A DNA stretch of 37,222 nt from a bacterium (GTDB lineage: Bacteria > ARS69): positions 1 through 37,222 of the forward strand of contig JALGZR010000024.1 of assembly GCA_025774805.1 (NCBI GenBank). Direction: 5' to 3'. Of the stretch, positions 13,252 to 36,690 are shown in pieces; the first letter of the stretch is position 1; each line of letters starts with the position of its first letter. The position numbers were made by a program, and so were the translations under genes. The notes under the pieces were generated by a model. The model searched no databases and was not told where the DNA came from. It worked only from the letters and a program-made list of their open reading frames with translations.

Positions 13252-13419
13252 GACGGATCCTCGGGCGCAGGCGCTCTCTCGTCTATCGGGGGATCCCACC
13301 CGGATCTGAACCCGCCTCCCGTCTCCCCTACTGGGAAACCCCTCCGGAAGGAGGGAAGATCCGCTGCCGTTCCCGACGAGACTCCGCCGCTCAGGACATT
13401 GGATGAGTCAGCTGTCCGT

Positions 13420-32840: not shown

Positions 32841-33524
32841 CTAATACTCCAGATCGAGCGCTTCCGTCAGGAACCGGACGAATGGACCGGCCGTCCGGAA
32901 GCCGTCGGCGACCCGGTTCGTGAAGCCGGGCGAGCACGCCTCCTTCTGGGAGAGGTTGCGCACCGCGATGAAGTCCTTGCGCCGCAGGTCCTCGACGAGA
33001 GGATGCTCGGGGTCGAACCCTCGGGGCGGACGTTTCAGCGAGTCTCCGGCGAGCTCGAAGGCATCGCGAAACCGCTTCGCCTTCGAGATTCGCTTCCATC
33101 GAGCCGGATCGTCCACGATCGCCTCCCGGATCCGGAGCAGGGTCTTCGTCTCCGGATGCCAGATGCCCGCGCCGAGAAACACGTTTCCCGGCTCCAGGTG
33201 CAGATAGAACCCGGGGGCGTGGACGTCCTTCCCCCGCGCGTGACGAAAGTGAATGCCCACGTGGACCTTGTACGGGCTCTTGTCGCGGGAGAACCGGGTG
33301 TCCCGGTGGATGCGGAAGAGAGAGCCTCCCACGGGACGCGGGTCGGCAACGAAGTGAGGACTGATCTTGCGCAGGGGACCCGAGAAGGCGGCGACGAACC
33401 TCAGCGCGGGCTCCTTGACATCGGCGTCGTAGCGATCCCGGTTCTCGCGGAACCACTCGCGGTCGTTGTTACGCTTCAGGTCCGTGAGGAAACCGAACAG
33501 CGCGGGGGAGAACGGTGCGGACAC
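32841..33524 (-). CDS. DUF2461 (TIGR02453) family protein
   Basis: 227 aa, family length. Recognised from its N-terminus (FLTDLKRNNDREWFRENRDRY), the middle RIHRDTRFSRDKSPYKVHVG and the C-terminus (LEDLRRKDF-like, FVRFLTEALDLEY). Members are conserved, cytosolic and of unknown function. GTG start at 33522-33524 with GGAGGAG upstream. Its candidate promoter (33615-33643) and an array of 7-bp repeats lie in the leader; element copy C follows the stop. Confidence 0.9.
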   Translation of the reverse strand: MSAPFSPALFGFLTDLKRNNDREWFRENRDRYDADVKEPALRFVAAFSGPLRKISPHFVADPRPVGGSLFRIHRDTRFSRDKSPYKVHVGIHFRHARGKDVHAPGFYLHLEPGNVFLGAGIWHPETKTLLRIREAIVDDPARWKRISKAKRFRDAFELAGDSLKRPPRGFDPEHPLVEDLRRKDFIAVRNLSQKEACSPGFTNRVADGFRTAGPFVRFLTEALDLEY

Positions 33525-33663: not shown

Positions 33664-34479
33664 TCAGACGAGGAGGACTCCGCGCAGCACGGTGTGCGCC
33701 CGGCCCCGCAGGAGTGCGCGATCTCCCCGAAGCTCCACCTCGATCACTCCCCCGCGTGACGACGCCTGGAACGCCTTGAACCGGGTCTTCCCCAACCGCG
33801 GACTCCAGTAGGGCCCCAGAGCGCAATGCATGGAGCCGGTGACCGGATCCTCGTCGATCCCCACCGCAGGAGCGAAGTAGCGGGAGACGAAGTCGAACTC
33901 CCCCGAGCCACGGGCGGTCGCCATGATCGTGGCGGAGCCCGACTCCCGCAGCGCCGCGAAGTCCGGTGAGAGGTTCCGCAACACCTCCTCCGACTCGAGC
34001 TCCACGATCCAGTTGTCCTCCCCGATGGATCGCGCGGGAACGAGAGCCACGTTTCTCGCGGTTACGCCGAGTGCTCGTCGCGCCCCGGCGGAGAGCTCGG
34101 CCGGGTCGGAGGGCAACGCGGGAAAGTCGAGCTCGATCGCGGTGCCGCGACGCACCGCCCGAAGCTCTCCGCTCTTCGTGTGGAAGACGGCCTCGCGGTC
34201 TGCCGCGAGACGTCCCGTCTCCCAGAGGACGTGCGCCGTCGCGAGCGTCGCGTGCCCGCACAGGGCGACCTCGAGGGCGGGAGTGAACCAGCGAAGCGCG
34301 TACCCTCTCTCGACGGGCCGGGGGAATGCGGTCTCCGAGAGGTTCATCTCCGCGGCGACCGCCTGCATCCACCCCTCGTCCCGCTCCTCGTCGAGCAGAC
34401 AGACGGCGGCCGGGTTTCCCCGGAAGGGCTCCTCCGTGAACGCATCCACTTGGAAGATCGGGATCTCGCTTCGGGACAT
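33664..34479 (-). CDS. PhzF family isomerase-like protein
   Basis: 271 aa. N-terminal VDAFTEEPFRGNPAAVCLLD (11-30), catalytic Glu in AEMNLSETAF (Glu44), CGHATLATAHVL (74-85), and the second-half signature GIDEDPVTGSMHCALG. PhzF enzymes are diaminopimelate-epimerase-fold isomerases; only some act in phenazine synthesis, and no phz genes are present here, so the substrate is open. The ATG at 34477-34479 is preceded by GGGGGT. The gene stands alone between DUF2461 and the small-ORF region. Confidence 0.92.
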   Translation of the reverse strand: MSRSEIPIFQVDAFTEEPFRGNPAAVCLLDEERDEGWMQAVAAEMNLSETAFPRPVERGYALRWFTPALEVALCGHATLATAHVLWETGRLAADREAVFHTKSGELRAVRRGTAIELDFPALPSDPAELSAGARRALGVTARNVALVPARSIGEDNWIVELESEEVLRNLSPDFAALRESGSATIMATARGSGEFDFVSRYFAPAVGIDEDPVTGSMHCALGPYWSPRLGKTRFKAFQASSRGGVIEVELRGDRALLRGRAHTVLRGVLLV

Positions 34480-34761
34480 TGCCTGGACCCCCGGGGGTAT
34501 GAGGCTCGCAGGGCGGGCCGCGAAGAAGCAGGATACCGCGAAGCGGCGGCGGGGGGGAGCGGCAGCGGCTCGCCTCGCCCGGCGAGACGCACTGGCCCGA
34601 GGTCGGCCCTTTCGCGGGGCAGGGTTCTGTTCTATCCTATGGGTCGAGCTCCGCGACGCTCTCTCGGGGGTGCGCGGCGGTCCCGATGGCTCGGGGCGGC
34701 CCGAGGGACCGGGCGGTGGGGTGCCGCCGGGAGCGACCACGCCCGGGAAGGAGGTGATCCA

Positions 34762-34806
34762 GTGGGTAGTACCAGTAGCGGCTCGGCGGAGGTGGCGTCC
34801 CCGTAG
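34762..34806 (+). CDS. 14-codon ORF behind a 13-nt perfect Shine-Dalgarno
   Basis: GTG at 34762-34764 is preceded, two nt away, by AAGGAGGTGATCC (34748-34760). This is the full complement of the conserved 3' tail of bacterial 16S rRNA (GGATCACCTCCTT). The frame encodes MGSTSSGSAEVASP and stops at TAG. A strong hairpin at 34885-34918 would end the transcript. A possible -10 (TATCCT) is at 34633-34638, but the -35 is not convincing. It may be a leader peptide, a small protein, or a non-coding RNA that touches the ribosome. The same frame is open upstream but that part is Gly/Arg-rich and lacks support. Confidence 0.45.
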   Translation: MGSTSSGSAEVASP

Positions 34807-34884
34807 GGGCCTCCCGAGTGACCGCGAAGGTAGCTTGGATCGAGCCCCTTCCTGGGGGCACCCAGCGCCATCGAAACCGACCCG

Positions 34885-34918
34885 AACGACCCCGGGGCCG
34901 AACGGCTCCGGGGTCGTT
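34885..34918. terminator. strong hairpin downstream of the small ORF
   Basis: AACGACCCCGG pairs perfectly with CCGGGGTCGTT (11 bp), and an inner GCCG-AA-CGGC can extend it. CCCTTT follows on the plus strand. It also lies 15 nt past the stop of the minus-strand secreted protein, so it may terminate both transcripts. Confidence 0.7.
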
Positions 34919-34933
34919 CCCTTTCCGGGTCGA

Positions 34934-36595
34934 TCACTTCAGTCGCACGAGCTTCGCGGTCGCCCGGGAGCCGTCCGCGGCGACCGCACGCACGAAGTAG
35001 GTTCCCGGAGCCGTCCCCCGAAGATCCCACGCCGTGGCCCGGACCCCCGACGCGTGGCCTCCGAGGTCCCGGCGGGCGACGAGCCGGCCGATCACGTCGT
35101 ACATCGCGACCCGGAACCGTCCCGCGATCGGCGGGACGAAGCGGAGCTCGACGCGTTCGCGCGCGGGATTCGGCTCGATGCGGATCGCGAGAGCGCTGGG
35201 ACGCGGGGCGAGCCCGAGCGCCGCCGTCGGATCCGACCCGTACGGCGAGATCTCGACTCCGATCGGACTCGCCCTCTCGGCGGCGAAGGTCTCTGCGAAG
35301 TCGGCCCCCTGATTCGGCGGCCCGTAGGCGATCGTGCGCAGGGGCCGGAAGCGAAAGTGCGGCCCGAGTGCCGGATCGGTGTTCGGGATCGGATCGGTCT
35401 CCCAGAGTCCGCTCGCCCCGTATTCGTACGCGTCTCCCGTGCACTGCGTCTCGGGCGGGGTCTCGTCATCCGAGTAGTAGGTCGTCCAGTCGAAGCCGGG
35501 GATGTCCGTGTCGATGGAGAAGTGATGGGCGATCGTCCCCGAGTCTCCCGAGACCTGCTGCCAGGTGACGGGCGCCGACGTAATCGCGTCCGGGTTGCCG
35601 TCGACGAGAACGCCGGCGGGGTTGGCCTCGTCGCGGTAGACCATCCCGGAGGCGGACGGCTCGTAGTCCCAGTAGTCGACGACCCCGGAGATGGCGTGGA
35701 CGCGGAGAACCGTGAGGAGGTCCTCCCGTTCCTCGTAGAAGGCGTGGATGCGGTGCGTCGTGGGTCCGCTGTTCGCGCCGACGTATCCCCGCAGCGCCCG
35801 GATCGGACCCGTGCGATTCACGATCATCGCGCCCTCCCCCGCGCTGAACGTGTCCTCCGATCGCACGCAGACGCCCGGCGCGAAGAGCGACTTGTGGCGA
35901 TCCAGGATGTCCACCCCGGTCGCACCACCCGCCGTCACCGCCGTCTCGTCGCGAATCCACCGGTCGGCGAAGTGCACGGTATAGGCCCCCGTGGTCACGC
36001 GCGAGTCTTCCGGGTTGGGACCGGACATGGTGTTGTAGGTGGCCTTGTATCCTCCCGACAGGAGCACGAACTGGTAGTCGATGGAGGGAACTCCCGCGGC
36101 CGGATCCAGGCTGCCGTCGCTCTCGAAGAGGTAGAGTCGCCCCGTGGATCCGCAGAGGGGGTCGGTGAGCGTGAGCTCGAGTCCGGTGCCGAGCACGACC
36201 CCGGAGGGGTGCCCGGTCCCGGGATCTCCCGCGTCGCCCGCCCGCAACACGATCTCGTCGTCTCCGTCGATGCCGGGGACGGGGTCCGCGCCGGTGAATG
36301 TCGAGGTATCGGCGTACGTCAGGATCTCGGAGCCGGTGGGATCGATGTTGTAGATCGTGCCGAAGTCCACGGTGGCCCGCTCGTCGACCTGAGCGGGGAC
36401 GGGGACCCATCCCCCGTCGTAACGAAACGCCACGACCCTCTCCGTCGAGACCCCGTCGAGGGAGGGCACCTCCGCTCCCGTCAGGACCACGGGATCGCGG
36501 GATCTCGGAAACGCGATCGCGGAGGAGGCGGCCGCCACCAGCGCGAGCGTGGCGACGTAACCCGCGAGTCCGGGATATCCGTTCTTCACTCTCAT
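34934..36595 (-). CDS. secreted protein with C-terminal FlgD-Ig/T9SS-like tail
   Basis: 553 aa. The ATG at 36593-36595 follows GGAGGAG. Signal peptide near 12-28 (YVATLALVAAASSAIAF). The central region is rich in beta-strand with acidic stretches (GIDGDDEIVLRAGDAGDP, SIDTDIPGFDWTTYYSDDET) and a few Cys residues (LCGSTG, GVCVRSED, TQCTGD); I do not recognise a catalytic domain. The last ~80 residues (RIEPNPARERVELRFVPPIA, then GTAPGTYFVRAVAADGSRAT) are the FlgD-Ig/type IX sorting pattern, as in the metalloprotease at 21406. Presumably exported to the outer surface. No partner genes adjacent. Confidence 0.8.
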   Translation of the reverse strand: MRVKNGYPGLAGYVATLALVAAASSAIAFPRSRDPVVLTGAEVPSLDGVSTERVVAFRYDGGWVPVPAQVDERATVDFGTIYNIDPTGSEILTYADTSTFTGADPVPGIDGDDEIVLRAGDAGDPGTGHPSGVVLGTGLELTLTDPLCGSTGRLYLFESDGSLDPAAGVPSIDYQFVLLSGGYKATYNTMSGPNPEDSRVTTGAYTVHFADRWIRDETAVTAGGATGVDILDRHKSLFAPGVCVRSEDTFSAGEGAMIVNRTGPIRALRGYVGANSGPTTHRIHAFYEEREDLLTVLRVHAISGVVDYWDYEPSASGMVYRDEANPAGVLVDGNPDAITSAPVTWQQVSGDSGTIAHHFSIDTDIPGFDWTTYYSDDETPPETQCTGDAYEYGASGLWETDPIPNTDPALGPHFRFRPLRTIAYGPPNQGADFAETFAAERASPIGVEISPYGSDPTAALGLAPRPSALAIRIEPNPARERVELRFVPPIAGRFRVAMYDVIGRLVARRDLGGHASGVRATAWDLRGTAPGTYFVRAVAADGSRATAKLVRLK

Positions 36596-36690
36596 CGGCT
36601 CTCCTCCCGGAACGGTCCGCGGGGGCGAGCCCCGACGCCGGCTCGGGGGCGGCCTCCCAGGGTCCCGTTCCCGTTCTCCGTCCCGCAACC

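Follow-up and report, generated by a model that had tools for sequence, protein, structure and literature searches.

The locus described here is a free-standing, single-copy structured RNA gene that belongs to a family spanning several bacterial phyla. Our preferred reading, to which we assign a probability of about one half, is that the RNAs of this multi-phylum family, including the actinobacterial Ms_IGR-5 (Rfam RF02471), act in trans and toggle between a ribosome-engaged and a folded state, with the encoded peptide being a by-product. An sRNA filed as actinobacterial and functionless appears to be part of a family that is present in several phyla and possesses a conserved, probably translated micro-ORF; moreover, the family carries a helix that translation must break, suggestive of a ribosome-sensing RNA. 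Such RNAs are missed by annotation because the ORF is so short and the available RNA models are lineage-bound. The window, that is, the entire 37,222-nucleotide stretch of bacterial DNA that was analyzed, contains the following features of the locus and its surroundings:

34633-34638 (+): candidate -10 element TATCCT; a TAT-N-CT-like element is similarly placed in several homologs, as judged by eye
34643-34922 (+): whole RNA gene, 5' end approximate; the unit is conserved from the 5' domain through the hairpin
34712-34728 (+): 5' hairpin GGCGG...CCGCC of the window-type subfamily; RNAalifold prediction from ten sequences, with double changes
34748-34760 (+): extended Shine-Dalgarno (SD) sequence AAGGAGGTGATCC, complement of the 16S 3' tail
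34762-34806 (+): micro-ORF with GTG start, 14 codons (MGSTSSGSAEVASP) and TAG stop; a short in-frame ORF occupies the same place in 60 RNAs
34789-34794 (+): SD-like GAGGTG, encoding Glu-Val, with the stop 9 nt downstream; Glu in 59 and Val in all of 60 RNAs
34791-34798 (+): 5' arm of P1, GGUGGCGU, pairing with 34865-34872, with covariation
34798-34802 (+): 5' arm of P2, UCCCC, adjoining the stop codon; pairing with the G run at about 34854-34858 by RNAalifold
34837-34852 (+): GGATCGAGCCCCTTCC, an imperfect complement of the SD (-18.4 kcal/mol, z -2.7) that masks it in the predicted minimum-energy fold
34854-34858 (+): 3' arm of P2, GGGGG, by RNAalifold
34865-34872 (+): 3' arm of P1, GCGCCAUC, pairing with 34791-34798, with covariation
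34884-34919 (+): 16-bp terminator-like hairpin, z -6.1; a hairpin is similarly placed in homologs, with compensatory changes
33664-34479 (-): flanking gene for a PhzC-PhzF protein (PF02567, E 3e-67)
34934-36688 (-): flanking gene whose protein product matches Por_Secre_tail weakly, below the Pfam cut-off

The first-pass annotation of the window had called attention to a 13-nt perfect anti-16S sequence, and AAGGAGGTGATCC is indeed present at 34748-34760, as the sole exact copy both in the window and in the 5.10-Mb genome, with the complementarity running on through a further AG to 15 nt (AAGGAGGTGATCCAG, compared to CTGGATCACCTCCTT). The genome's own 16S gene is only partly assembled (model positions 9-871) and lacks the 3' part, so the tail was checked by proxy, in a genome of the same family (G002) whose 16S ends with CTGGATCACCTCCTTTCT. 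Across the members, the complement of the 16S tail extends over 13-16 nt, and the predicted duplex amounts to -23 to -30 kcal/mol, compared to about -6.6 to -10.3 kcal/mol for ordinary SDs, in agreement with the earlier assertion that this element exceeds ordinary ribosome-binding sites. The GTG ORF likewise reads exactly as described, with GTG at 34762-34764 and TAG at 34804-34806 delimiting the 14 codons of MGSTSSGSAEVASP. The downstream hairpin, previously given as an 11-bp GC-rich strong terminator, is present and is both longer and stronger (-35.4 kcal/mol); the U tract that follows it (CCCTTTCC) is weak, which explains why a strict terminator scan missed this hairpin. The proposed setting between PhzF and a secreted-protein gene is supported on the PhzF side, whereas the secretion match is weak. 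The PhzF-like gene is adjoined by a gene for a DUF2461 protein (PF09365, E 1.3e-70; 32841-33524, minus strand); elsewhere in the window, at 13288-13384 (minus strand), ARAGORN reports a tRNA-like match with no clear anticodon that is probably spurious. A scan of the locus for consensus promoters found none, and because the resemblance to the homologs was judged by eye, TATCCT is a weak -10 candidate, which would place the transcription start near 34643.

Taken alone, the anti-16S sequence could be a chance match or a remnant of antisense 16S DNA, given that a genome as large as this one should contain any particular 13-mer about 0.15 times under a simple 4^13 estimate. This explanation is scarcely credible because covariation and a fixed ORF accompany the conservation of the unit. 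The search of related genomes for the combination of 13-mer, ORF and hairpin, advocated in the first-pass annotation, recovered the whole unit, excluding chance. The antisense debris variant was rejected specifically: beyond CAG, the sequence departs from antisense 16S (CAGTGGG versus CAGCCGC), in addition to the unit being conserved.

A DNA search of 98 genomes detected the unit in three further genomes of the window's family and in one genome of another family (G029). Within the window's family, four of the five genomes, the window included, possess the RNA; in the fifth, G002, no match was obtained either by DNA search or with the covariance models R1 and R2 described below. Scanning the species-genome collection for the exact pattern yielded six stretches, some of them from metagenome-assembled genomes (MAGs) that bear the titles Thermoanaerobaculia, Myxococcales and Gemmatimonadetes; the stretch from the Gemmatimonadetes MAG has the sequence found in G001, on an equally long contig. 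Model R1, built from ten window-type RNAs without any RF02471 matches, added seven loci from a set of 386 genomes: four were strong, and of the three weak ones, L059 and L060 show the layout and L061 does not. Model R2, built from 25 RNAs, detected the RNA in 28 of the 386 genomes sampled across the domain and, among 198 genomes from the phylum of G375, in 63, always as a single match. G375 scores 175.9 bits against RF02471, from which, together with the literature, we infer that this phylum is the actinobacteria. The SD is kept in all members, nearly always as GGAGGTGRTCC; in G029 it reads GGAGGTGGTCC, and the pairing with 16S is retained through G-U wobble. The distribution is patchy, with no match in most of the sampled genomes or in G002, which weighs against the preferred reading.

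The gene neighborhoods bear on how the RNA might act. At the loci inspected, the neighbors are not conserved, and in many of them a terminator-like hairpin lies directly 3' of the unit; the downstream genes include carB (L039), a pilQ-like gene (L077) and, on the other strand, a DEAD-box helicase (L086), all identified by eye from the protein sequences. The suggestion of the first-pass annotation that the unit could be a leader, that is, a cis-acting leader or attenuator of a downstream gene, is therefore very unlikely: the short leader-like ORF and the overlapping helices would fit, but the downstream genes vary, leaving no conserved regulated gene, and the next gene in the window is on the opposite strand. 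Because the neighbors are not conserved, action would be in trans. One way to act in trans is by base-pairing, whereby the 3' element or loops would pair with target mRNAs and the ORF would serve as a stability control or be a side product. The free-standing, terminated, single-copy nature of the gene, with no shared neighbors, accords with such an sRNA, but a pure antisense RNA would not need a frame and a stop position that are held over several phyla, so that we consider this possibility unlikely.

The connection to Ms_IGR-5, the 5' domain and the stop-enclosing helix were all overlooked in the first-pass annotation. Although built without RF02471 matches, R1 recognizes an RF02471-type RNA: it picks up L060 (from G044) weakly, at E 0.004, and the RF02471 model independently matches the same locus with an end-to-end alignment (39.9 bits, E 4e-6). 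Matches to the RF02471 model were detected in 13 of the 386 genomes, and all share the layout (L069 when read from the reverse complement). Like the window RNA, Ms_IGR-5 combines an extended SD, a short ORF ending in E-V-x-x-x before the stop, GAGGUG, P1-type pairing and a terminator, and it is recovered by the same covariance models. In contrast, Rfam files Ms_IGR-5 as a non-coding actinobacterial sRNA with no known function, the structure line of the alignment examined lacks P1, and the window type has a 5' domain of its own and a different P2. At the gathering thresholds, Rfam returned nothing for the window, which scores 14.3 bits against RF02471 (cut-off 45, also above the score of L060) and 19.4 bits against the Caulobacter sRNA CC2171 (RF01867, gathering cut-off 75); being far below both thresholds, the window RNA is a relative rather than a member of these Rfam families. 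Hence the window type is a new branch of a known, uncharacterized RNA, outside the bounds of the Rfam family.

The CC2171 family also starts with GAAAGGAGGUGAUCCAGUG, and its consensus, read by eye, seemingly contains a GTG-initiated ORF, with a long-range stem preceding the terminator; the apparent ORF, of about 22 codons, lies directly after GAAAGGAGGUGAUCCA. However, the consensus lacks GAG-GUG near the stop, and the best members other than the window reach about 32 bits against CC2171. Direct homology was rejected on the grounds of the subthreshold score and the missing GAG-GUG, and CC2171 is possibly an analog. Among the CC2171 matches, L160 looks like genuine antisense 16S and L156 shows no short ORF. 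Two loci from other families (L153 and L159, both at about 1513 on the minus strand) show a similar layout with a different sequence, namely, a long SD, an ORF of 10 or 15 codons, a helix containing the stop codon and a terminator-like hairpin; judging from these loci, the layout may extend beyond the family.

The micro-ORF was analyzed in 60 RNAs extracted by script; L121, which by eye carries MKIHCRDEVTGA, was left out. The start codons are TTG (27), GTG (18), ATG (11), CTG (3) and ACG (1), a few of these assignments (CTG, ACG) being uncertain. Counted from the first base of GGAGG, the start is 12-17 nt downstream; it is in frame with Glu-Val (Gly-Val in one case), the ORF comprises 11-16 codons, and the stop follows Glu by five codons in 54 RNAs and by six in 5, with GAG-GUG being near-invariant. 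In a comparison of ten RNAs, the SD, start codon and stop are all retained, while the ORF length shifts by whole codons (13, 14 or 15), as in G003, where a TTG-initiated ORF has 13 codons. The presence of the ORF results in part from selection, because the search demanded a short frame containing E-V or G-V, and this weakens the case for the preferred reading; the constancy of the frame, despite the varying spacer and length, is not due to this selection. The window itself shows the features of the wider family, with an extended SD, an in-frame ORF within the 11-16 codon range, Glu-Val and a stop five to six codons on. The micro-ORF is very probably translated.

A conserved micropeptide gene, in which a peptide of 11-16 residues with an E-V-x-x-x C-terminus would be the product and the RNA its mRNA, could account for the strong SD, the kept frame, the near-invariant E-V and the Thr two residues before Glu in 35 of the 60 RNAs. 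However, E-V is also fixed at the RNA level, by the GGUG of P1, and the ORF body lacks visible amino acid constraint. In 50 similar pairs, which are not independent, the codons before Glu accumulated 133 non-synonymous and 45 synonymous changes, a ratio near the random-change expectation, and the third codon position changed least (78, 104 and 50 changes at the three positions, respectively). With this ratio, the residues of the ORF body are not visibly selected, and there is no sign of purifying selection on the amino acid sequence. Accordingly, of the earlier proposal of a highly translated micropeptide, translation and the conserved unit hold up, whereas the residues upstream of E-V are not conserved, and a micropeptide gene is in our view unlikely. 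On the evidence of these sequence comparisons, it is the frame, the length class and the stop position, rather than the peptide, that appear to be selected.

Part of the ORF also forms a long-range helix, P1, around the stop codon, in which GGUGNNNN of the ORF is paired with an element immediately 5' of the terminator. In the Ms_IGR-5 type, P1 consists of GGUGNCUG with CAG(n)UCACC, and in the window type, of GGUGGCGU with ACGCCACC; in the window, 34791-34798 and 34865-34872 form eight pairs, wobbles included. All eight pairs are complete at the best-scoring site in 52 of the 60 RNAs, an approximate figure because the script placed the site off the conserved position in about nine RNAs, and there are compensatory changes at several positions. 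The RNAs' own P1 pairing score was 18.9, compared to a mean of 16.6 and a maximum of 17.3 in 40 permutations of the 3' regions, and the covariation score for P1 and P2 combined was 0.301 in an alignment-based count, compared to 0.167 for shuffled and at most 0.172 for slid alignments. P2, which adjoins or overlies the stop codon, is not as secure as P1 (paired in 64.6% of cells) and differs between the subfamilies, which tells against the preferred reading. An AAUCC(C)A or ACCCA motif recurs between the 3' arms of P2 and P1.

Other folds involve the SD itself. In the Ms_IGR-5 type, its 3' half has an alternative partner in GGAC within the ORF, a pairing that the Rfam structure shows. When the window core is folded in isolation, the prediction favors an SD-sequestering structure over P1, again at odds with the preferred reading. 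In L125, L134, L140, L141 and L150, the 16S tail is copied almost perfectly, as GGACCACCTCC or similar, 20-35 nt past the stop, and such an internal copy could mask the RNA's own SD in a minority of members; the element at 34837-34852 of the window is a weaker version. As a family-wide feature, the internal anti-SD was rejected, with z below -2 in only 13 of the 60 RNAs. These observations are pertinent to the possibility, raised in the first-pass annotation, that the RNA titrates or stores 30S subunits, with the extended SD being the active part. The near-invariant SD and the strength of its duplex with 16S are in line with such a role, but titration would require high RNA abundance, the SD can be masked in some members, and neither the conserved stop position nor P1 would be explained; we find this role quite improbable.

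Under the preferred reading of an RNA that alternates between ribosome engagement and folding, the long SD would recruit 30S subunits, which should load readily, given the great strength of the SD duplex relative to ordinary ones, unless the SD is masked. The ribosome would then read the 11-16 codons and arrive at a stop codon 9 nt past the SD-like GAGGUG, which may serve as an internal SD. With the stop codon in the A site, GAGGUG would precede the P-site codon by 6 nt, and at this distance it could pair with the anti-SD and hold the ribosome. A ribosome at the stop would cover P1 and P2, and in its absence the 3' domain would close over the stop. Because codons of the ORF form part of P1, folding of the 3' domain should be incompatible with a ribosome that is translating or terminating there. 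With its long SD, short ORF and stop enclosed by the fold, the RNA resembles a sensor of ribosome activity more than a peptide gene. In this scheme, the conservation, the ORF frame and the P1 covariation were computed here, and the transcription of Ms_IGR-5 and its ribosome protection in mycobacteria come from published work; we infer the switch or sensor acting in trans, the dependence of its state on ribosome engagement and the by-product status of the peptide.

According to the available portions of the published reports, IGR-5 of Mycobacterium smegmatis overlaps an RNA-seq transcript (PMC10454040), Ms_IGR-5 has RNA-seq support in Streptomyces lividans (PMC8079986) and is among the mapped sRNA transcription units of S. 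avermitilis (PMC8780764), and ribosome footprints cover MS_IGR-5 homologs in M. abscessus and M. smegmatis (PMC4974804). The accessible text of the latter study also describes footprints over other non-coding RNAs, which reduces the weight of this observation for the preferred reading (PMC4974804). As far as excerpts of a study on Staphylococcus aureus go, extended SD-anti-SD pairing is used there for initiation, but at mRNA ORFs and uORFs of one species rather than in a conserved free-standing RNA (PMC13009471). Those parts of the literature on Ms_IGR-5, RF02471 and 16S-complementary sRNAs that were accessible contain no description of the micro-ORF, a mechanism, the cross-phylum link or the stop-enclosing helix; relative to the Ms_IGR-5 literature found, the micro-ORF, the link and the helix are new.

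A more far-reaching version of the preferred reading is that the family is a widespread readout of ribosome state, in which the full-tail SD would capture 30S subunits and the position of a terminating ribosome, parked by the internal SD at a favorable distance from the stop codon, would decide whether the stop-enclosing helix forms and thus how the RNA acts in trans. We hold this version to be possible, if on balance doubtful. 6S RNA and Ms1 are RNA polymerase-binding RNAs, and the likeness to them would be confined to the idea of an RNA reporting the state of a core machine that it engages; the machine is a different one, and the analogy is functional, with no homology claimed. If the version holds, such an RNA would be a ribosomal counterpart of 6S RNA. 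In trp leaders, including the trans-acting trp leader RNA of Sinorhizobium, translation of a short ORF controls RNA folding. The family may be analogous to these leader-peptide RNAs in this respect, but it has neither a downstream operon nor a run of regulatory codons.

Two members carry unusual sequences. The RNA of G102 (L058:1329-1512) contains a variable-loop insertion flanked by perfect inverted repeats of 24 nt (CTAGCCTGGATTATGCACGCGTTT) that are 136 nt apart, and keeps the 3' arm of P1 beyond it; this insertion could represent either a small mobile element or a nested hairpin. In L059, positions 203-338 form a long imperfect inverted repeat of the GGGGATGGGGG type that produces weak matches to microRNA models on both strands.
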